37,571 nucleotides of DNA from the IMG/VR virus record IMGVR_UViG_3300034418_011087, positions 1 through 37,571 of that record, one strand, 5' to 3'. Shown here piece by piece: positions 22,905-32,638 of this stretch; position 1 is the stretch's first letter; each line of letters begins with the position of its first letter. The notes under the pieces are model-generated. The model was not told the DNA's origin and did not search any database. It saw nothing but the letters and a program-made list of their open reading frames with translations. Position numbers and translations under genes: made by a program. This DNA comes from a virus.

Positions 22905-23708
22905 ATGATTTCACTGACACGACTTTTAAAGGAAGTTCAAGGTAACCCAAAAGCTATAATCCTTGCTGGCGCCCCTGGTGCTGGTAAGGGTTCTATCTTG
23001 GGGGATTTAGATTTATCGGGGTTAAAAATATTCAATTTAGATGATACTATTTTAGCTTTAGCAAAAGCCGAAAAATTTTCACTAAATCAAAAAGATACAG
23101 ATGCTGAAAACAGAAGTGCTTTTATGAAGGCAATGGCTGCAGCAACTAAAAAACTTAAAGGAGAACAAATCCCTACAGCAATCGCTAATAAAGATTCATT
23201 TATCTTAGATGGCACGGCTGCATCAGCTAAACAAACTCAATTATTAGTTGACCAATTAAAGGAAGCTGGCTATGATATAATGATGTTATATGTTTATACG
23301 CATCTTGAAACGTCTCTAAAACGCAACGAACGTAGGTTCGAGAAGAGTGGTGGTGAAGATAGAAGTTTAATGCCAAGCGCTGTATACAGAACTTGGATTG
23401 ATGTAGCTAAAAATTTTGAAACTTACCAACAAATGTTTGGTAATAATTTTGTATCTGTTTCAAACTTAGGTAAAGATGAAACAATGAAAGATGTAGAAAA
23501 AATTCTAAAAACCTACATCGATCCATTTAAACCAACAGATGCTAAACCTAAAACTGATAAGGAAATAGCTAGATCTAAAAAACAATCTGAAGAATTAAAT
23601 AAAGAAATCCAAGATTTCTTAAATTCAGATAAAGTCCAAAATATTATTGATAATTCAGTGTCTAAAGAAGAGGCACAATCAAAGATAACATCATTTGTAA
23701 ATGGCTAA
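22905..23708 (+). CDS. P-loop kinase (zeta-toxin/polynucleotide-kinase-like) with N-terminal tag
   Basis: 267 residues from ATG 22905 (a TTG one codon earlier is less likely). A Walker A motif GAPGAGKGS (22-30) follows the hydrophobic strand KAIILA. NLDDTI and a FILDGTAAS strand suit a nucleoside/polynucleotide kinase fold, and RNERRFEKSGGEDR may be the arginine-rich lid. The C-terminal 70 residues are Lys-rich and helical. The first ten residues (MISLTRLLKE) precede the kinase strand and end in an LxE tripeptide, like the tags on later proteins. The 3' end overlaps the next gene by 8 nt. Substrate unknown; a zeta-like toxin is an alternative. Confidence 0.75.
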   Translation: MISLTRLLKEVQGNPKAIILAGAPGAGKGSILGDLDLSGLKIFNLDDTILALAKAEKFSLNQKDTDAENRSAFMKAMAAATKKLKGEQIPTAIANKDSFILDGTAASAKQTQLLVDQLKEAGYDIMMLYVYTHLETSLKRNERRFEKSGGEDRSLMPSAVYRTWIDVAKNFETYQQMFGNNFVSVSNLGKDETMKDVEKILKTYIDPFKPTDAKPKTDKEIARSKKQSEELNKEIQDFLNSDKVQNIIDNSVSKEEAQSKITSFVNG

Positions 23709-26700
23709 AACAATCGCAGCATACGGAGGTGGATTCAAACCACCCACAGCAGGTCATTTTGAAGTAGTAAAACGTGCTTTAGAACAATTCCCTGAAATAG
23801 AGGAACTTACAATTTATGTAGGTGGTGGTGAACGTGATGGTATTACTCAAGCTGAAGCTGTTTTAATTTGGGAAATTTATCAATCATACCTTCCAATGAA
23901 GGTTAAAATTGAACCCTCAAAAGCCCCTATTGGGGATATTATCCGTTTAGGTAAAAATAATCCACAAGACAAAGTTTACTTTGTAATTGGAGCTCGTGAA
24001 AAAAATGAAGGGGATCTAAAAGATATTGAATCACGTACTAAGGGGGTTGAAGAAAAATACCCTAATATGGAGATTAAAATTATTCAAACACCTGGAGGAG
24101 GTATGAGTGGTACTAATGCTCGTAAAGCCGCTAAAGTATCTGCTGAAGAATTTTACAAATACCTACCCTCAGAATTAACAGATGAAGAAAAACAAGAGGT
24201 TTACGATATTGTAAAACCTATGGTAAATGAAACACTTTTACCTTCTGCTTCTGATATTAAAGCTAAATTTAAAGATTTAATATTTGCTGTAAAACAACAA
24301 GGTGGAGATGCTAAAAAAGCACTTGTTATGTTAGTTAAAGCCGCTAAAGGTGAAATTGATCTAACAGATGATGATAAAGCATTTATTAAGTTGCAATTAA
24401 AAGATGCTCTTAAAGCTGTTTTAGGAACAGCTATATTTGCTCTCCCAGCAGGTTCATTAGTATTGCTCTTGCTTAAAGCTATTAAACTACATGGGTTAGT
24501 AATCCCAACCGCATTCCTAAATGAAAGATTAGAGCCATATAAGTTTAAGGTATTATTTTTAGAAAATGAAGATAATACTACAAGATATACTTTTACAACA
24601 AACCAGGGTACCGAATATTTAGTAGATTTAGTTAGAAAACCTAAAACTGAAGTAAAAATTGAATATGGTGCTATTAAAGAAGGTCAAAAATCTTGGGTTA
24701 AACCTACTAACGAAGGTGAACCCCTTAAAGTTATCTCTACCGTAACTGAAATTATTAAAGAGTATTATGTAAGTAATCCTAATCTTGAAGTTGTAAAATG
24801 GAAAGCAACTAAGGGTAAAAATAATACTAAAGTTGATAGTCAAAGAGACAAACTAAACATTAAATTCTTCCAGAGAGAAATGCCTGGGATTAAAGTAGTT
24901 CATGAAGGTCAAGAAACAAGAATTATCTTACCTAAATTAAATGAAAATGCTACTTATTCTAAAGACATTGACATTATAGAAAAATGTGCTGCCTTAACAA
25001 ACCACATGCGTGAAAAAGGATACAAGATTGATCCTTTACCTTCGATTGAATTTGTTAACGGTGATACTGAAAATGCTAGAGATTTCTTTGGTAAAACAGC
25101 ATATTACGATCCAAACGAACAAAAAATTGTTTTATATACTGAAGGTCGTCATCCTAAAGATATTGTTCGTTCATTTGCTCACGAGATGATTCATCATGTG
25201 CAAAATCTTGAGGATCGTTTAGGTAATATTACAACAACAGATACAACTGAAGATTCTAATTTAGAGGATATCGAAAAAGAAGCATATCTAAATGGTAACA
25301 TCTCATTCAGAAACTGGACTGATAGTCTACAGGAAAAGAAAAAGAAAGATCCATTTGGTTTAAATCAATATGCTCGTGAATTAGCTCAGGGTTTAGAAGA
25401 ATCATTAAATGAAGGTCGTTACGATAGTATTTCAAGACAATTAGCTTCAATTGCTCTTAATTCTTGGAAAAGCGATTTCAAAGATGGAGCAAGCTATGGA
25501 TATTTTGTGGGTGAAATTACTCCTGAAGAATATCCAACGGATTTAACATTTACATTTAAAGCATTAGGTCGATTTGTAGATGGTCCTTACAAGCACAACG
25601 GTTATTCAAGATCAGATGGTGAAGTAGGAGTTAAATATGAAATTCCAAAAGATTCTATCCCTCAAATTTGGGAAGAAGTTTATATGGATTTAATTTCTAC
25701 TATTCGACATGAAATTGAACATCAAACCCAAGGTGGTAAAAATGTTAAACCTGGTAAAGGAATGGCTTCTGACCAAGAATTAAGAAAATTAATTCAAAAA
25801 GGAGGAAGTGATTTAGTAGCATATGTTACTCTACCTAAAGAAATCGAATCAAACGTTCAAGGTTTATATCTTAAAGCTAAAAAGTGGAGACGTCCTTATG
25901 ACGAGATAGCTGATGAATATATTAAGGATTTCCTTAAAATCACCAACCCAGCTGATGTAAACTATGTTAAAAATAAATGGCAAGAAGTAGCTAAAAAACG
26001 TAATCTACCTAGTTTATTAAATGAAGGTCGTTACGATGCTTTTGTAAATAAATTGTCTCGAATCGTATTTGAAATGTTTAAAGACATTCACGATAGAGGA
26101 GATAAAGAAGGTGAATTTGAATTTAGAGTAGACCACCCAGATGAAGAACACGATATCCCATCTGAAGATTTTTACTTTGATCTAGCAGGTACAGTTAAAA
26201 TTACTGATGATGAATACATGGTAGATGGGGGGGCAAATGCTGGATTTGATGATGAAGGAGAAGAAATTACTCCAATGCTCGCAGTTAAATTTAAAATCCC
26301 TAAAAACCCAGATTGGCAAAAAGTATCTTTTGATATTAAAGATGTTGTAAGACACGAGCTTGAACATTTAACCCAAGATGGAGAAAACGTTAAAGGTGTT
26401 GTAATAGATCCTAAAGATCCAAGATTAAATAGACCTGGTAAGCAAATGGATGATGATCAAACAATTAGAGATTTAATTGATCTTGATTTATTGCCTAAAG
26501 CAGATTACTTTAGATTACCTAAAGAAATAGATGCTATGCTTCAAGGTCTGTATTATAAAGCTAAAAAATCTAGAACTCCATTTAAAGATGTAATTAATAA
26601 TTATCTTGATACTCAACCCATTAATGATGAGGAAAGAGAAAATATATTAAAAGTTTGGAGAAGCAGAAATAAGGCCTTATCTTTACCATTATTCGAAGAA

Positions 26701-27183
26701 CTAGAAGAAATGGAATACGAGATTTACTCCGATATGGACGGGGTTATTACTGATTTTGATGCTCAATTTATGAAAGCTTCTGATGGCATTCGTCCTTCAG
26801 AATATGAGCGCAATATGGGTAAAGATGGATTTTGGGAATTAGTAGATGGTAAAGGTGTAGGTTTCTGGGTAGGGATGCCTTGGATGCCTGATGGTAAACA
26901 ATATTGGGATTATATTAAAGAATACAATCCTATTTTATTATCATCACCCTCAAGATCAAATACTTCACGTTTAGGAAAACGTTTATGGGTTAGAAACCAA
27001 CTACCAGGAACTAAATTAATTTTGGCTCAAGCTAAAGATAAACAAAACTATGCTCGTAAAAATCGTATCTTAATTGATGATCGTCCTTCAAATATTGATG
27101 AATGGCGCTCACAAGGCGGTATTGGGATTTTACATACCTCAGCATCAAACACTATTAGACAGTTAAAAGAATTAGGATTATGA
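23701..27183 (+). CDS. Multidomain cargo polyprotein: nucleotidyltransferase, LETM1-like, three metallopeptidase-like domains, HAD phosphatase
   Basis: 1160 residues. 1-176: nucleotidyltransferase with GGGFKPPTAGHF (H19) and MSGTNARKA (135-143). 178-275: LETM1-like segment (LTDDDKAFIK, LPAGSLVLLLLKAIK). 276-415: unrecognised. 416-571: metallopeptidase-like, HEMIH 494-498. 572-775 and 776-1003: duplicated domains opening GRYD, with HEIEH (670-674) and HELEH (885-889), then a shared LPKEI...QGLY..KAKK block. 1004-1160: HAD phosphatase, DMDGV with D1011 and D1013, and ILIDDRP. The tripeptide LNE occurs at 273-275, 413-415, 569-571 and 773-775, each time at a domain boundary, and LEE at 1001-1003 before the HAD domain. 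T4-type prohead proteases cut after (L/I)xE, so processing into separate enzymes is plausible. Domain calls are by motif. Confidence 0.75.
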   Translation: MAKTIAAYGGGFKPPTAGHFEVVKRALEQFPEIEELTIYVGGGERDGITQAEAVLIWEIYQSYLPMKVKIEPSKAPIGDIIRLGKNNPQDKVYFVIGAREKNEGDLKDIESRTKGVEEKYPNMEIKIIQTPGGGMSGTNARKAAKVSAEEFYKYLPSELTDEEKQEVYDIVKPMVNETLLPSASDIKAKFKDLIFAVKQQGGDAKKALVMLVKAAKGEIDLTDDDKAFIKLQLKDALKAVLGTAIFALPAGSLVLLLLKAIKLHGLVIPTAFLNERLEPYKFKVLFLENEDNTTRYTFTTNQGTEYLVDLVRKPKTEVKIEYGAIKEGQKSWVKPTNEGEPLKVISTVTEIIKEYYVSNPNLEVVKWKATKGKNNTKVDSQRDKLNIKFFQREMPGIKVVHEGQETRIILPKLNENATYSKDIDIIEKCAALTNHMREKGYKIDPLPSIEFVNGDTENARDFFGKTAYYDPNEQKIVLYTEGRHPKDIVRSFAHEMIHHVQNLEDRLGNITTTDTTEDSNLEDIEKEAYLNGNISFRNWTDSLQEKKKKDPFGLNQYARELAQGLEESLNEGRYDSISRQLASIALNSWKSDFKDGASYGYFVGEITPEEYPTDLTFTFKALGRFVDGPYKHNGYSRSDGEVGVKYEIPKDSIPQIWEEVYMDLISTIRHEIEHQTQGGKNVKPGKGMASDQELRKLIQKGGSDLVAYVTLPKEIESNVQGLYLKAKKWRRPYDEIADEYIKDFLKITNPADVNYVKNKWQEVAKKRNLPSLLNEGRYDAFVNKLSRIVFEMFKDIHDRGDKEGEFEFRVDHPDEEHDIPSEDFYFDLAGTVKITDDEYMVDGGANAGFDDEGEEITPMLAVKFKIPKNPDWQKVSFDIKDVVRHELEHLTQDGENVKGVVIDPKDPRLNRPGKQMDDDQTIRDLIDLDLLPKADYFRLPKEIDAMLQGLYYKAKKSRTPFKDVINNYLDTQPINDEERENILKVWRSRNKALSLPLFEELEEMEYEIYSDMDGVITDFDAQFMKASDGIRPSEYERNMGKDGFWELVDGKGVGFWVGMPWMPDGKQYWDYIKEYNPILLSSPSRSNTSRLGKRLWVRNQLPGTKLILAQAKDKQNYARKNRILIDDRPSNIDEWRSQGGIGILHTSASNTIRQLKELGL

Positions 27184-27991: not shown

Positions 27992-28438
27992 ATGTCTGAC
28001 TTTAATATTCATGCTTGGAAAAAAAATCAATATCTTGCTGAAGCAGGACTTGGTAGCTCTCAGGCACAATCCTTAGCTAATCTTATTAATGATGCTATTA
28101 TGCAAGTAGATGAGTCTCTATCTTATAGAGACTTTGCTATTGCTGTTGGTATCGTACTTAAAGAAGAGTATGGCTCTCATAACTTTGGAAAGTTTATGGA
28201 AGTATTACATGCTGAATTAGGTATAGAAGAATCTATAAACGAAGAACAAGCTTACGATACATACAAAGTACACGTTGTTACTTCTGATCCTTACGAAGGT
28301 GGTCCTGATGAGTGGTTTGATCATGAAGTAAAGGTAGATTCTTCTTTAACTGGTGACGATATTAAAGCAAGTATCAAAGATACTATCTATGATATGGGTT
28401 ATAGACATTTGTACAAACTCAATTACGAGAAAGCATAA
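27992..28438 (+). CDS. Tagged two-domain hypothetical protein
   Basis: 148 residues. The N-terminal tag MSDFNIHAWKKNQYLAE ends in LAE (15-17). Residues 18-80 form a helical domain (SLANLINDAIMQVDESLSYR, then GKFMEVLHAELGIE). ESINE is followed by a second, alpha/beta domain (about 85-148: YDTYKVHVVTSDPYEGGPDE, then a KASIKDTIYDMGYRHLYKL helix). An IxE tripeptide (INE) separates the two domains, so the protein may be a mini-polyprotein. No enzyme motif. It is the first gene behind an exact late motif and shares its stop bases with the next gene. Confidence 0.65.
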   Translation: MSDFNIHAWKKNQYLAEAGLGSSQAQSLANLINDAIMQVDESLSYRDFAIAVGIVLKEEYGSHNFGKFMEVLHAELGIEESINEEQAYDTYKVHVVTSDPYEGGPDEWFDHEVKVDSSLTGDDIKASIKDTIYDMGYRHLYKLNYEKA

Positions 28439-30603
28439 TGGAAGATATTAAAAAAATACAAGAATTCTTCTCTAAACCTTTAGAAGAAAATTCCTTTAAA
28501 AAAGGTGATAAAGTAACCTATTTGGGAAACCCAGCCGAAATCACTTTCGTAGGCAAAGACCAAATGGATAGAACATATTATAGTGTATCCTACGATAAAG
28601 GTAATGGTAAAACTAAAGCATCAAACCTTTATAACAAAGGTGGTGAAATTAAACCTTTAAACGAGGGAAGCGAAAATATAGATGTTGAAGACTTTGCTAA
28701 AGTAGTTCAAGCAATCAGCCAAACAAACCACCCCGTAACTGTATTGTTAACTCCAATTTTTGGAAAAAATGAAATCGAAATCATTGTAGGTAATGATGCA
28801 CCCGATCCTATTGTTGATGATATGTTTAATATAATAGCTGACTTAGGATACAAACGTGGGGAGTATAGTATAGTAGGTGATACATCTAGTTTATCAAGAA
28901 GAGAATATTCCCAAATTCGTAGAATAAATGGTGGTCATAAAGATTACCAACGCTGGGAAGAATCGGTAAACGAAATGGATATCAATGACCCAGTCTTAAT
29001 GAAAATGAGAGCTGCTAAAGATAAATTAGCTAAAAAAGGAACAGATAATACTAGTGGTGATCCTAACGACCGTTTCTTTAAGAAGAATATGGATAGACTA
29101 AAAAAGTTAGATGCTTTAAAGAAAAAACGCGCTCAAATTATGCGCGATATGGAACAAGAAGCTGAACCCGAAGGTGGCCCAATCGCAGACAAGTATGGTG
29201 ATATGCTTAACAAAATTGATAAAGCAATTGATCTACTTTCACCCCAGAAAAAAGGGGATGAATATATGTCTAAGGATGAAATTGAAAGACGAGCAGCAAT
29301 GATTCAAGATCCTTACGCTAATTATATATCACAAGTAAATGCTATGTTTGGTTTAGAAGAAAACAAACCGGTAGCAAACCCCAACAAACACATTAAAGGA
29401 ATCCAAATTCAATTAGATCAATTAGGTATTAAATATGAAATGGATCCTAAAAATAAAGTCCAACCATTCAAAGTAATTTACAAACCAGTAAATAAAGATG
29501 ATGACTTTTATGATAAATTTGATGATATTGTATTCAGATACAATCTTAAAGGTGTTGTAAAAACATCAATGAGTGAAGCTTCTAAAGAAGAAGAAACTGA
29601 ATTTCATAAAAAATTAGATAAATTAGTTCATAGCACTTTCGGTAAAAGAAAAGACGAACTAGAAGAAGGCGCTGTTGAAATAATGGATGCTTATAATCGT
29701 ATTTTAGATTTACTTAAAAAAGAATCTCGTGCTTTAAATGATGACGATTCATATGCTTTAGGTTTAAAATTAAGAGCATGGTTTGAAAAGAATATTATAA
29801 ACGAAGATTCTAAAGGTGCTTTAAATTATTTTAACGATTTAAAATATTATTATCAAAAAGCATTTAGATATCTAGATGTTAAAGAAAGAGAAGAATATAA
29901 ACAATTAGCTAAAGATTTCTTTTCTAACTTACAAATTGACGATAAAGTTAGAGCTGTTGGTTTAGAAGAAAATGATCAATTAACCGAAGCTTACGTTCCT
30001 CAAAACATCAAAGAATTTGCTAAAAGAAAAGGTGTTTCACGTTTAGTAAACACTGTAGCAGGTTGGGCTGAAAAAGTAGGCGCTCGTATTACTGGTGGAA
30101 CTGCTATTGGTAAATACTATAATACTCTTATTTTAGATTTAGGTTATCAAACCGGTGACATTCGTATCGATTGTGATGAAGAAACAGTTGAATTATATTA
30201 CGAACCAGTAAACAGCTTTGCTGAATTTAAAAACGTGTTTATGGAAGAAGAAAGCCGTAAACAAGCTGAACACGATGAAGAAACTTTACGTCGTGAACAA
30301 GGTTTAGAAGAAGGTGCTTCAACTGAAGAGAAAAAAATTGCTCAACAAGCAGTTAATAGAATTGCCAAATACAGAGGCGTAGGTAAAGATGAAGCCAAAA
30401 ATGATTTAATTAGAGCAGCTAAAGAATTAGCCGAAACAATTAAATTAGGTGAAGGCGTTATCTACGAAGAACTTTGTGAAAAAGGCAAACGCTACATTAA
30501 AGCAAGACAAGCTGCTGGTGAAAAATCATCTGCTTACCTCTCAGGTCGTGCTGTTAGAGTATGTAAAGGTCAAATCGAATGGCCTAAAAAAGGAAAAAAA
30601 TAA
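28438..30603 (+). CDS. Mosaic protein of short modules separated by LEE/LNE sites
   Basis: 721 residues with no single recognisable fold. LxE tripeptides separate apparent modules: LEE 15-17, LNE 74-76, LEE 306-308, LEE 408-410, LEE 509-511, LTE 515-517 and LEE 623-625, plus VNE 177-179. Modules: 18-73 KOW/SH3-like (FKKGDKVTYLGNPAEITFVG); 77-179 alpha/beta; 180-305 helical, with DINDPVLMKMRAAKDKLAKK; 309-407 alpha/beta; 411-508 helical; 518-622 alpha/beta; and 626-721 ending ELCEKGKRYIKARQAAGEKS and YLSGRAVRVCKGQ, a C-terminal motif I recall from phages. The first 17 residues look like the targeting tags. It probably encodes several small capsid-associated peptides. Confidence 0.65.
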   Translation: MEDIKKIQEFFSKPLEENSFKKGDKVTYLGNPAEITFVGKDQMDRTYYSVSYDKGNGKTKASNLYNKGGEIKPLNEGSENIDVEDFAKVVQAISQTNHPVTVLLTPIFGKNEIEIIVGNDAPDPIVDDMFNIIADLGYKRGEYSIVGDTSSLSRREYSQIRRINGGHKDYQRWEESVNEMDINDPVLMKMRAAKDKLAKKGTDNTSGDPNDRFFKKNMDRLKKLDALKKKRAQIMRDMEQEAEPEGGPIADKYGDMLNKIDKAIDLLSPQKKGDEYMSKDEIERRAAMIQDPYANYISQVNAMFGLEENKPVANPNKHIKGIQIQLDQLGIKYEMDPKNKVQPFKVIYKPVNKDDDFYDKFDDIVFRYNLKGVVKTSMSEASKEEETEFHKKLDKLVHSTFGKRKDELEEGAVEIMDAYNRILDLLKKESRALNDDDSYALGLKLRAWFEKNIINEDSKGALNYFNDLKYYYQKAFRYLDVKEREEYKQLAKDFFSNLQIDDKVRAVGLEENDQLTEAYVPQNIKEFAKRKGVSRLVNTVAGWAEKVGARITGGTAIGKYYNTLILDLGYQTGDIRIDCDEETVELYYEPVNSFAEFKNVFMEEESRKQAEHDEETLRREQGLEEGASTEEKKIAQQAVNRIAKYRGVGKDEAKNDLIRAAKELAETIKLGEGVIYEELCEKGKRYIKARQAAGEKSSAYLSGRAVRVCKGQIEWPKKGKK

Positions 30604-30896
30604 TGACAAACGAGCGCCTGCAAGAAATTATTCAAGAGTCATTGCGCGACTGGTTCAAAAAAGAGGACTGGGTGCGCATTGATACTCAAGGTAATATTAC
30701 TGGCCCTTGTGGTACTATGAAAAAAGGTGATGCAACTACTCGTTGTCTACCAAAAAAGAAAGCTCAATCACTAACTAAAGCGGAAAGAGCTAAAACATCT
30801 CGTAAAAAAGCAGCAGCATCTCGTAAAGGTAAACAATTTGTTTCCAATACAGATAAAGCAAAGTATAAAAAAGGAACATACCATAACAAGAAATAA
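30603..30896 (+). CDS. Basic DUF5872-like protein
   Basis: 97 residues, very lysine-rich in its C-terminal half (KKKAQSLTKAERAKTSRKKA, later RKGKQFVSNTDKAKYKK). The middle has GNITGPCGTMKKGDATTRCLP, matching the GPCG...RCLP pattern I associate with DUF5872 proteins of phages and large viruses. Two cysteines might bind metal. The N-terminal helix (ERLQEIIQESLRDWFKKEDW) resembles helices in neighbouring proteins. Strong positive charge suggests DNA binding, possibly to packaged DNA. The start shares bases with the preceding stop. Confidence 0.65.
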   Translation: MTNERLQEIIQESLRDWFKKEDWVRIDTQGNITGPCGTMKKGDATTRCLPKKKAQSLTKAERAKTSRKKAAASRKGKQFVSNTDKAKYKKGTYHNKK

Positions 30897-30897
30897 A

Positions 30898-31479
30898 ATG
30901 GGTACATTTGATTATAAATCATATATTGCTAATAATCCTCTTTTAAAAGAATTTGAGGACAATGGAGCTGAAGAAAAAGCATTTGATGCTGAATTAATGG
31001 CTACCGCTAATGGTATTGCTGCTACTTTAGGTAAAGAACTTAAAGCTAAAAAAGGAGATAAAGACCAATTAGACGAAGTTCTTGGTTCAGTTATTGCCGG
31101 TATTTTAACAGCTAATACATTAGTCAATTTTATCTCTAAAATGGCTGCTAAACTATTTAAAAAATTAAACTTTAAAAAAGGTGAAGATATCGCTGAAAAA
31201 ATTCATCATTGGGCTCACGATAACGAAACCGCCTTCCAAGCTCCAATCAAACGTGTTTTAGCTTTCTTTATTAAAGATGAAAAAAAATTAGATATGGTTA
31301 CTAAAGCATCCTATGCCATTGTGGTTGGTTTAATGGCAGCTGGTTACGGAGCAGAAGCAGTAGAGGGTTTATCTAAAGCCGATTGGTTTAAAGGAACTTT
31401 ATCTTCATTAAAAGCTGTTGCTAAGAGCGATGAAGCATTAGTTAACGCTTATCCAGCAATTAAAACCCTTATGGTATAA
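30898..31479 (+). CDS. Tagged protein with amphipathic/hydrophobic helices
   Basis: 193 residues from ATG 30898, one base after the previous stop; the frame is open further upstream, but that part overlaps the preceding gene. The N terminus MGTFDYKSYIANNPLLKE (1-18) aligns with MDNFDFKKYLAENRL and MDNFDLKKYLAEGRL of genes at 31520 and 35039. Hydrophobic helices at about 60-82 (VLGSVIAGILTANTLVNFIS) and 135-155 (ASYAIVVGLMAAGYGAEAVE) may insert into or bind a membrane, for example during DNA entry. No family recognised. Confidence 0.65.
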   Translation: MGTFDYKSYIANNPLLKEFEDNGAEEKAFDAELMATANGIAATLGKELKAKKGDKDQLDEVLGSVIAGILTANTLVNFISKMAAKLFKKLNFKKGEDIAEKIHHWAHDNETAFQAPIKRVLAFFIKDEKKLDMVTKASYAIVVGLMAAGYGAEAVEGLSKADWFKGTLSSLKAVAKSDEALVNAYPAIKTLMV

Positions 31480-31519: not shown

Positions 31520-32638
31520 ATGGACAACTTCGATTTTAAAAAATACTTAGCTGAAAACAGATTACATGAAAACATGTTTGACGTTGCTACAACAGAGAAA
31601 ATTGCTCAAGCTGTAGCAGACGCGTTTACAGCTGACGATGAACTAGACCTAAAATATACAGTCCACCCAGGAACAGAAGAAAGTTCATTCGATCTTGATG
31701 TTGAGGCTGGTCCTAACACCCCAGGTGAAGATTGGAAAGATAAAAATGGATTTAGTATCGATAACTACCTTGGCGAATTTGCAGGTGGTTCTTTTTACAT
31801 CAAAGACGGAGTAGTATACAATGCTGCTAGCAGAAATGCTCCCGTTGCTAATGTATCACCAGAAGGTGAAGTTGAAATGATTTCAGCTGAAGAATCAAGA
31901 GCTGCCATTGATTCACAAGATGATATCCCAGCAATTGATAGAATGTATAACTCTGATGCTTGGGTGCAAGCTCAAAGAGATGCAATGGAAGAATCTAAAG
32001 AAGAAAAAAAATCAAATAAAATGAAAAAATCCGAATTAAAGGAAATGATCCGCACTGCATTCCTTAACGAAACAGAAGAAAAAGTTGAAGAAGGCACTTG
32101 GGCAGTATTGCCTGCTCGTATTCCTGAATTTATTCAAGCTGTAGAAGATCTTAAAGATGAATATCATGGTGTAGTAGGTAGTGATGATGTGTTTGATGGT
32201 TTAGACGCTGCTATTAGCGCTGCTGAAGAATTATTAATGAACACAGCTGAAATTAAAGAAGCTGAAGAAGATGAAGAAGAAGTAACTGTAGATGACACTG
32301 AAGAAATCGATGTTGATACAGATGCTGAAACTGCAGATGCAGGTGAAGTAGATGTTGAAGCCGATGCTGAAGTTGAAATGACAGGCGATAAAAAAGAAGT
32401 TCAAGACAACTTACAAGCTGCTCTTGAAGCTGCTAAAGCATTAGGTGACCAAAAATTAGTAGACCAAATCGGTAACTCAATTACATTCTTTACTCGTACA
32501 CACGTTGTAGGTAAATCTGAAGTAGCTGAAGCTGATGTAGATGTTGAAGTAGATTCACCTGTTGAAGATGCTGAAGTAGGAATGAAATTAGATGAATCAA
32601 TCAACCGCATGAAAAAACTTGCAGGTTTAATTAAATAA
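31520..32638 (+). CDS. Tagged, acidic, core-like protein
   Basis: 372 residues. The N terminus MDNFDFKKYLAE ends in LAE (10-12). Residues 20-155 are alpha/beta (FDVATTEKIAQAVADAF, YLGEFAGGSFYIKDG). A helix KKSELKEMIRTAFLNE (169-184) ends in LNE. A helical region (193-240) is followed by a very acidic stretch (247-288, almost all E, D, V, A and T), reminiscent of prohead core/scaffold proteins such as T4 gp22 and gp67. The protein ends with MKLDESINRMKKLAGLIK, a short C-terminal signature I have seen in other T4-like phage proteins. Role in the prohead core is inferred from tag and charge. Confidence 0.6.
   Translation: MDNFDFKKYLAENRLHENMFDVATTEKIAQAVADAFTADDELDLKYTVHPGTEESSFDLDVEAGPNTPGEDWKDKNGFSIDNYLGEFAGGSFYIKDGVVYNAASRNAPVANVSPEGEVEMISAEESRAAIDSQDDIPAIDRMYNSDAWVQAQRDAMEESKEEKKSNKMKKSELKEMIRTAFLNETEEKVEEGTWAVLPARIPEFIQAVEDLKDEYHGVVGSDDVFDGLDAAISAAEELLMNTAEIKEAEEDEEEVTVDDTEEIDVDTDAETADAGEVDVEADAEVEMTGDKKEVQDNLQAALEAAKALGDQKLVDQIGNSITFFTRTHVVGKSEVAEADVDVEVDSPVEDAEVGMKLDESINRMKKLAGLIK

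Follow-up and report, generated by a model that had tools for sequence, protein, structure and literature searches.

A mosaic polyprotein with modules bounded by LxE sites, a probable head cargo of a T4-like phage

The stretch of viral DNA analyzed here (the window) is 37.6 kb long and has a G+C content of 32.6%. Its genes run from tail and baseplate genes through a primase, an exonuclease and a kinase-like gene to a head-type block with few database matches. An ORF in this block, at 28438-30603, begins with ATG and encodes exactly 721 amino acids, as the initial annotation had it. No credible family was found for this ORF in Pfam, PHROGs or NCBIfam; Mannitol_dh_C and WbqC appeared below cut-off only. 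Homology to the T4 internal proteins IPI-III or to Alt was also not detected, with no Pfam match above the curated cut-off and no PHROG of known function. The internal proteins (IPs) of T4 are poorly conserved, and homology to IPI-III or Alt is optional for membership of the class.

The ORF consists of a leader and a series of modules, all on the plus strand. The leader MEDIKKIQEFFSKPLEE (28438-28488, residues 1-17) ends in LEE and resembles a capsid-targeting sequence. Module 1 (28489-28665, residues 18-76), SH3/KOW-like by sequence only, ends in PLNE; in other contexts its exits are PLKE, PLEE, LTE, MAE and VKE. Module 2 (28666-28974, residues 77-179), a compact alpha/beta domain, ends in SVNE and is predicted with a pLDDT of about 90 at residues 81-140. 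Module 3 (28975-29361, residues 180-308) is helical, has the core QIMRDMEQEAEPEGGPIADKYG and ends in FGLEE. It is the most widespread of the modules and also lies within gp79 of Flavobacterium phage immuto. The core stretch RAQIMRDMEQEAEPEGGPIADKYGDMLNKID (29107-29220, residues ~224-261) is nearly invariant across very different phages, with identity of up to 94% over 38 residues; the peptide EAEPEGGP within it occurs in 36 ORFs, and no match to a known family was found for this core in the libraries searched.

Module 4 (29362-29577, residues 309-380), another compact alpha/beta piece with a pLDDT of about 90, ends in SMSE. The short helical module 5 (29578-29667, residues 381-410) ends in ELEE and is preceded in relatives by VYE, MDE, LLE, LNE or VNE. 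Module 6a (29668-29805, residues 411-456) ends in IINE, and the same piece is found in the related locus L032 (7670-9691), where it has GLEE before it and is followed by SLEE and module 8a. Module 6b (29806-29970, residues 457-511) ends in GLEE; its support is weaker, a single relative behind LAE in L033. The hexapeptide NDQLTE (29971-29988, residues 512-517) is flanked by two sites, and comparable double sites, such as VNETEELTE and MKEGELNE, stand ahead of the next module in several relatives. That module, module 7 (29989-30312, residues 518-625), is an alpha/beta domain with the sequence AYVPxNIKEFAKRKG and ends in GLEE, with a pLDDT of about 90 and 44 loci. Relatives of module 7 were not found in bacterial genome contigs, and tblastn detected neither module 7 nor module 8 in isolate phages. 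Module 8a (30313-30468, residues 626-677), whose GASTEEK entry follows LEE in three contexts, ends in IYE. Module 8b (30469-30600, residues 678-721), ELCEKGKRYIKARQAAGEKSSAYLSGRAVRVCKG, is a basic C-terminal piece. This last piece, SAYLSGRAVRVCKG, and the next gene, WFKKEDWVRIDTQGNITGPCGTMKKG, are separate in the window (30469-30896) and fused in L087 (7935-8468); in immuto gp84, two similar basic pieces are joined.

Scans of viral contigs with the whole protein returned 29 loci; about 90 further loci, some of which overlap, came from scans with single modules. Across these ~120 related loci, the modules are found in different orders and beside different neighbors. The leader is exchanged as a unit: there are 30 distinct leaders, and what follows them varies freely. 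For instance, a leader stands immediately before module 2 in L002, L025, L029, L033 and L067; in L007, module 3 follows immediately after the leader MEDLKQIQEFFSKPLEE (PLEE|MD); in L006, a leader and a short stretch precede module 7, with module 3 further along the chain; and in L107, by our reading by eye, a leader directly precedes the last piece, ELCAKGKRYIK, which is fused on to a relative of the window gene at 30898-31479. For this window gene, the listed TTG start at 30838 (30838-31479) overlaps the preceding gene, and the ATG at 30898 gives a leader-like N-terminus, MGTFDYKSYIANNPLLKE. Module 8a, in place of module 4, follows the seam FGLEE in L043.

Several modules are also found outside long chains. 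Module 2 is a separate gene of 104 aa in L012 and L035-L039, with MKHFKTFESFINE or MKKVKLFEQFIGE as its leader. In L036, it belongs to a row of four consecutive genes whose leaders are MRNVKLFESFINE, MKKVKLFEQFIGE, MKHLKLFEEFTSLNE and MAKLKSFEQFLSE. A free module 2 gene with a short leader has exactly the layout of the T4 internal proteins. Module 7 lies within a 188-aa gene in L085. A free copy of module 1 in L096 (4632-4841) has 69 aa and neither a leader nor an LxE start, and module 1 is therefore not always tied to the head system. Since both module 2 and the deoxynucleotidase described below occur in both forms, the same module can move either alone behind a leader or in a chain behind LxE. 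The initial annotation had proposed, as a check, a search for the segments as separate genes in related phages; modules 1, 2 and 7 occur in this way, and other orders are found as well.

The polyprotein reading of the initial annotation is thus strongly supported: homology breaks at LxE, modules occur as separate genes and in reshuffled order, and the predicted structure consists of separated islands. For the last point, the two halves of the ORF were folded apart with AlphaFold2, using alignments of 24 and 20 rows. Confident islands were obtained at residues ~81-145 (module 2), 220-270 (module 3 core), 319-378 (module 4) and 519-605 (module 7), with a pTM of 0.35 in each half, and module 1 had a pLDDT of ~30-50 with the alignment at hand, too low to bear out its KOW/SH3-like label. 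Most junctions fall in low-confidence linkers between the islands: stretches with pLDDT <50 include 14-47, 62-78, 148-179 and 498-515, which contain sites 17, 76, 179 and 511. Sites 410 and 456 lie inside a predicted low-confidence helix. A continuous fold across the sites, the outcome that would have spoken against separate modules, was not predicted in either half. In Foldseek searches with both half-models, no PDB entry matched under E 0.001, and among viral models one uncultured-phage protein of unknown function was found (E 4e-14).

The sites listed in the initial annotation are all present: LEE with its E at residues 17, 308, 410, 511 and 625, LNE (76), LTE (517) and VNE (179). That list was selective, as the ORF has 10 LxE and 16 [LIV]xE tripeptides in total. 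Because [LIV]xE does not exceed the level seen after shuffling of the protein (16 vs 13.3 expected, p=0.24), the raw count proves nothing alone. LEE is far above chance (5 vs 0.5, p<0.002), and so is LxE with G or N as the next residue (7 vs 0.6 expected, p<0.002). At least three junctions that had not been listed, MSE (380), INE (456) and IYE (677), are backed by relatives, few of them in the case of site 456, and no junction support from relatives was found for LAE 666, LGE 672 or LCE 681. The supported sites are therefore those at residues 17, 76, 179, 308, 380, 410, 456, 511, 517, 625 and 677.

Positions at which homology to relatives starts or ends were compared with random draws. These tests were confined to the 721-aa ORF, since boundary statistics over all ORFs are diluted by unrelated genes. 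On the window side, 45 of 87 homology starts fall at [LIVM]xE (null 17.3, maximum 28 in 300 draws); on the relatives' side, the count is 47/87 (null about 17.6-18.1, maximum 27-29), and a repeat agreed. About half of the starts thus lie away from any LxE. The signal at homology ends is weaker (21/65 in the window and 25/65 in relatives, null ~13), partly because BLAST ends are fuzzy. A control with tail genes yielded nine internal boundaries only, too few for a strong negative.

At individual junctions, with different sequence beyond, [LIVM]xE stands at the junction or within 2 residues of it in 25/25 entries to module 7 (AYVP; here [LI]xE, the sequence upstream of which differs), in 24/24 entries to module 8b (ELCxKGK; [LIV]xE) and in all 30 distinct leaders. 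Likewise, [LIVM]xE lies within 2 residues of the conserved start of module 3 in 23 of 25 entries. Module 5 exits are [LM]EE in 6/6 cases, with different followers. Module 4 exits read VK[STQ][ST]MxE in 19/19 distinct rows with about ten kinds of follower, a count that covers only the rows with VK[STQ][ST]M, a looser pattern having caught unrelated sequences. At site 76, nine rows read by eye have LNE, LKE (three times), LEE, LTE, MAE, VKE and LGE.

These columns bear on whether the chain is cut at all. It might be an uncut mosaic produced by domain shuffling, in which LxE is a linker habit or a seam favored by recombination; the unremarkable total of [LIV]xE and the boundaries that have no site would fit this. 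However, only P3 and P1 are kept at orthologous junctions, P2 and P1' being free to change, a hallmark of protease sites, and one motif class covers seven different junctions plus the leader. In the 30 distinct leaders, P1 is E in 30/30, P3 is L in 25, M in 3 and I and V in one each, and P2 is E in 12, N in 11, K in 5 and D in 2. Such alternation at P2 is what would be expected of a protease that ignores this position, and the column pattern is that of a protease site and not of a DNA seam. We consider an uncut mosaic very improbable.

The P2 counts also bear on a further proposal, namely that this ORF prefers LEE and thereby differs from its neighbor, which prefers LNE. This preference did not hold up, because phages differ in whether a given leader junction has E, N, K or D at P2, and two protease specificities, one for LEE and one for LNE, are ruled out on the same ground. 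Family-wide, [LIV]NE is over-used 4.7-fold (147 vs 31 shuffled) and [LIV]EE 1.8-fold (112 vs 62 shuffled), bulky residues are avoided at P2, and A, G, M and N are preferred at P1'. Given that P2 varies at the same junction and both motifs are over-used, LEE and LNE represent one specificity.

The neighbor is a polyprotein-like ORF of 1160 aa at 23701-27183 (plus strand), which contains nucleotidyltransferase, metallopeptidase-like HExxH modules (HEMIH, HEIEH and HELEH) and a deoxynucleotidase. Its homology also breaks at LxE: 29 of 74 starts fall at [LIVM]xE (null 9.6), and other head-block genes have 39 of 91 (null 21.1). The same boundary signal in these genes suggests that the whole head block works likewise. 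The deoxynucleotidase, fused at the end of this ORF, is a free gene with leaders ending LLLE in immuto, LVQE in HTVC008M and SINE in Melnitz. Within 25500-26700, HExxH modules occur in tandem, each beginning LNE|GRYD, and immuto has a single copy behind MAE|GRYD; the pair is a module duplication with the cut motif at its borders.

The enzymes of this neighbor recall polyvalent proteins (Iyer et al. 2017), and the 721-aa ORF could be such an injected effector, with its domains freed by an embedded or neighboring zincin in place of the prohead protease. Both the metallopeptidase-like HExxH modules next door and the zincin link and proposed zincin processing of polyvalent proteins (PMC5512222) are in line with this. 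Yet the 721-aa ORF has no peptidase module. No enzymatic domain was recognized in it with Pfam, PHROGs or NCBIfam, whereas a polyvalent protein would combine several unrelated ones. In addition, its junctions bear the gp21 consensus, which is also conserved in the capsid protein of relatives, and the leaders have the architecture of T4 internal proteins. Release by a zincin suits the enzyme-rich neighbor better than the 721-aa ORF, for which we regard it as improbable.

The candidate protease is the prohead protease. In T4, gp21 cuts after L/I-X-E (PMC9026906); the IPs of this phage are directed to the prohead core by leaders of 10-19 residues, which gp21 then takes off (PMC9026906). No gp21 gene is present in this 37.6-kb fragment, and judging by synteny the fragment would end before its expected position: the order in immuto is the polyprotein block, terminase, gp20, gp21, a scaffold-like gene and gp23. 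PF03420 (S77) was found in 6 of 15 relative contigs, and all six encode a gp23-type capsid protein. T4 gp23 loses an N-terminal propeptide of 65 residues (PMC9958956). LLES/LFEG, GLLEG and LVxE/IVSE are conserved within the first 65 residues of the capsid protein in immuto and the six relatives; in the relatives' gp23-type proteins, LLES lies near the start and LVxE near residue 60, and LVxE/IVSE is close to the position at which T4 gp23 loses its propeptide. Because the capsid proteins keep LxE sites, the protease of this lineage very probably reads LxE.

Relatives also have an acidic scaffold-like gene between gp21 and the capsid protein, with 28-34% D/E. The window contains an acidic head-block ORF at 31520-32638 (plus strand) with the leader MDNFDFKKYLAE and a C-terminal tail, SINRMKKLAGLIK, that is common to scaffold-like proteins. 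The peptide R-M/W-Q/K-K-L-A-G-I/L makes up roughly the final ten residues of scaffold-like proteins in L125, L126, L129, L132 and L030, and it ends the window ORF as well (32600-32638). The same peptide is N-terminal, directly before LxE, in the leaders of L007, L047, L070, L083 and L010 (e.g., EFSRMQKLAGIINE). It may be that one class of targeting leader mimics the scaffold tail, which would serve as a docking signal.

These core genes introduce the main rival, which is the clearance of core peptides from the head. The 721-aa protein could itself be a scaffold or core protein like T4 gp22, gp67 and gp68, cut by gp21 for clearance, so that its pieces would be spacers and not cargo. T4 core proteins are indeed cut to multiple fragments that are mostly removed (PMC9026906), and modules 3, 5 and 6 are predicted to be helical or coiled-coil-like. 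On the other hand, relatives own the separate acidic scaffold-like gene in the gp21-capsid interval, modules 2, 4 and 7 are predicted compact domains, module content differs between phages in a manner that fits cargo better than an essential scaffold, and the architecture is shared with the enzyme-bearing neighbor. A scaffold role thus appears unlikely to us, though less so than release by a zincin.

We think it probable that the ORF encodes a head-cargo polyprotein of a T4-like phage and that the prohead protease processes it after LxE; it would then be the polyprotein counterpart of the T4 CTS/internal-protein system. The first ~17 residues would serve as a capsid-targeting sequence and draw the whole chain into the prohead core. 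There, the active prohead protease (gp21/S77 type) would cut after [LIM]xE, so that the leader is lost and about nine to eleven small proteins are freed. These would stay in the head with the DNA and be injected along with it. The sequence analysis itself establishes the module mosaicism, the LxE junctions and the exchanged leader, and in relatives the protease and the capsid-protein sites; entry of the chain, cutting inside the head, and retention and injection rather than expulsion are the steps that we infer by analogy with T4. With a minimal cut site at every module boundary, modules could be swapped, fused or split between genes with release kept.

A broader proposal, which we put forward tentatively and with a little less than even confidence, is that T4-like phages of aquatic bacteria use a single targeting peptide to load mix-and-match polyproteins, from which the maturation protease frees injected effectors. 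The LxE seam would then be both the cut site and the unit of exchange, and the RMQKLAGI leaders would copy the C-terminal tail of the scaffold-like protein for docking. If true, this would account for how a large set of injected proteins is packed and renewed at low cost in uncultured T4-like phages. Any head-block sequence flanked by LxE seams or by a capsid-targeting leader would become a candidate early effector, and many "hypothetical" modules that lack relatives in databases would be among these candidates. A portable tag system would also be predicted in lineages beyond T4. The fate of prohead-protease products becomes testable in immuto, an available isolate.

Single-cargo CTS proteins and multi-cut core proteins are already known in T4, and removal of propeptides in phiKZ-like phages; a prohead-protease cargo polyprotein was not described in the open-access papers searched, a negative limited to that literature. 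Like the ORF described here, IPI, IPII, IPIII and Alt of T4 have a short leader ending in an L/I-x-E-like site and belong with T4-like head genes, S77 being present in relatives of the window. However, each T4 internal protein has its own leader, whereas here a single leader serves a chain of up to about ten modules, each parted from the next by a site. T4 gp22, gp67 and gp68 receive several prohead-protease cuts per chain, as proposed here, but their fragments are mostly expelled, whereas the modules in this ORF appear to be folded, their content varies, and phages exchange them. Inner-body and ejection proteins of phiKZ and SPN3US are likewise matured by a prohead protease, at S/A-x-E, and some have several sites. 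In SPN3US, 13 of the 14 sites that were mapped serve to detach N-terminal propeptides (PMC10052503), whereas the sites described here would part folded modules. Polyvalent proteins (Iyer et al. 2017) are multidomain and thought to be injected, and the neighbor shares with them nucleotidyltransferase and zincin-like domains; for them, release has been attributed to zincins embedded in the chain or to C-terminal assemblin-like peptidases, in contrast to the inter-module LxE sites and separate S77 protease of the present system. A parallel in gene order is offered by immuto, a syntenic isolate with the same block (gp79, gp87 and gp88), which lies a short way ahead of the genes for terminase, portal, gp21 and gp23. 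In this phage, the module order is different, the deoxynucleotidase is separate, and gp79, annotated as hypothetical, fuses modules that lie in three genes in the window.
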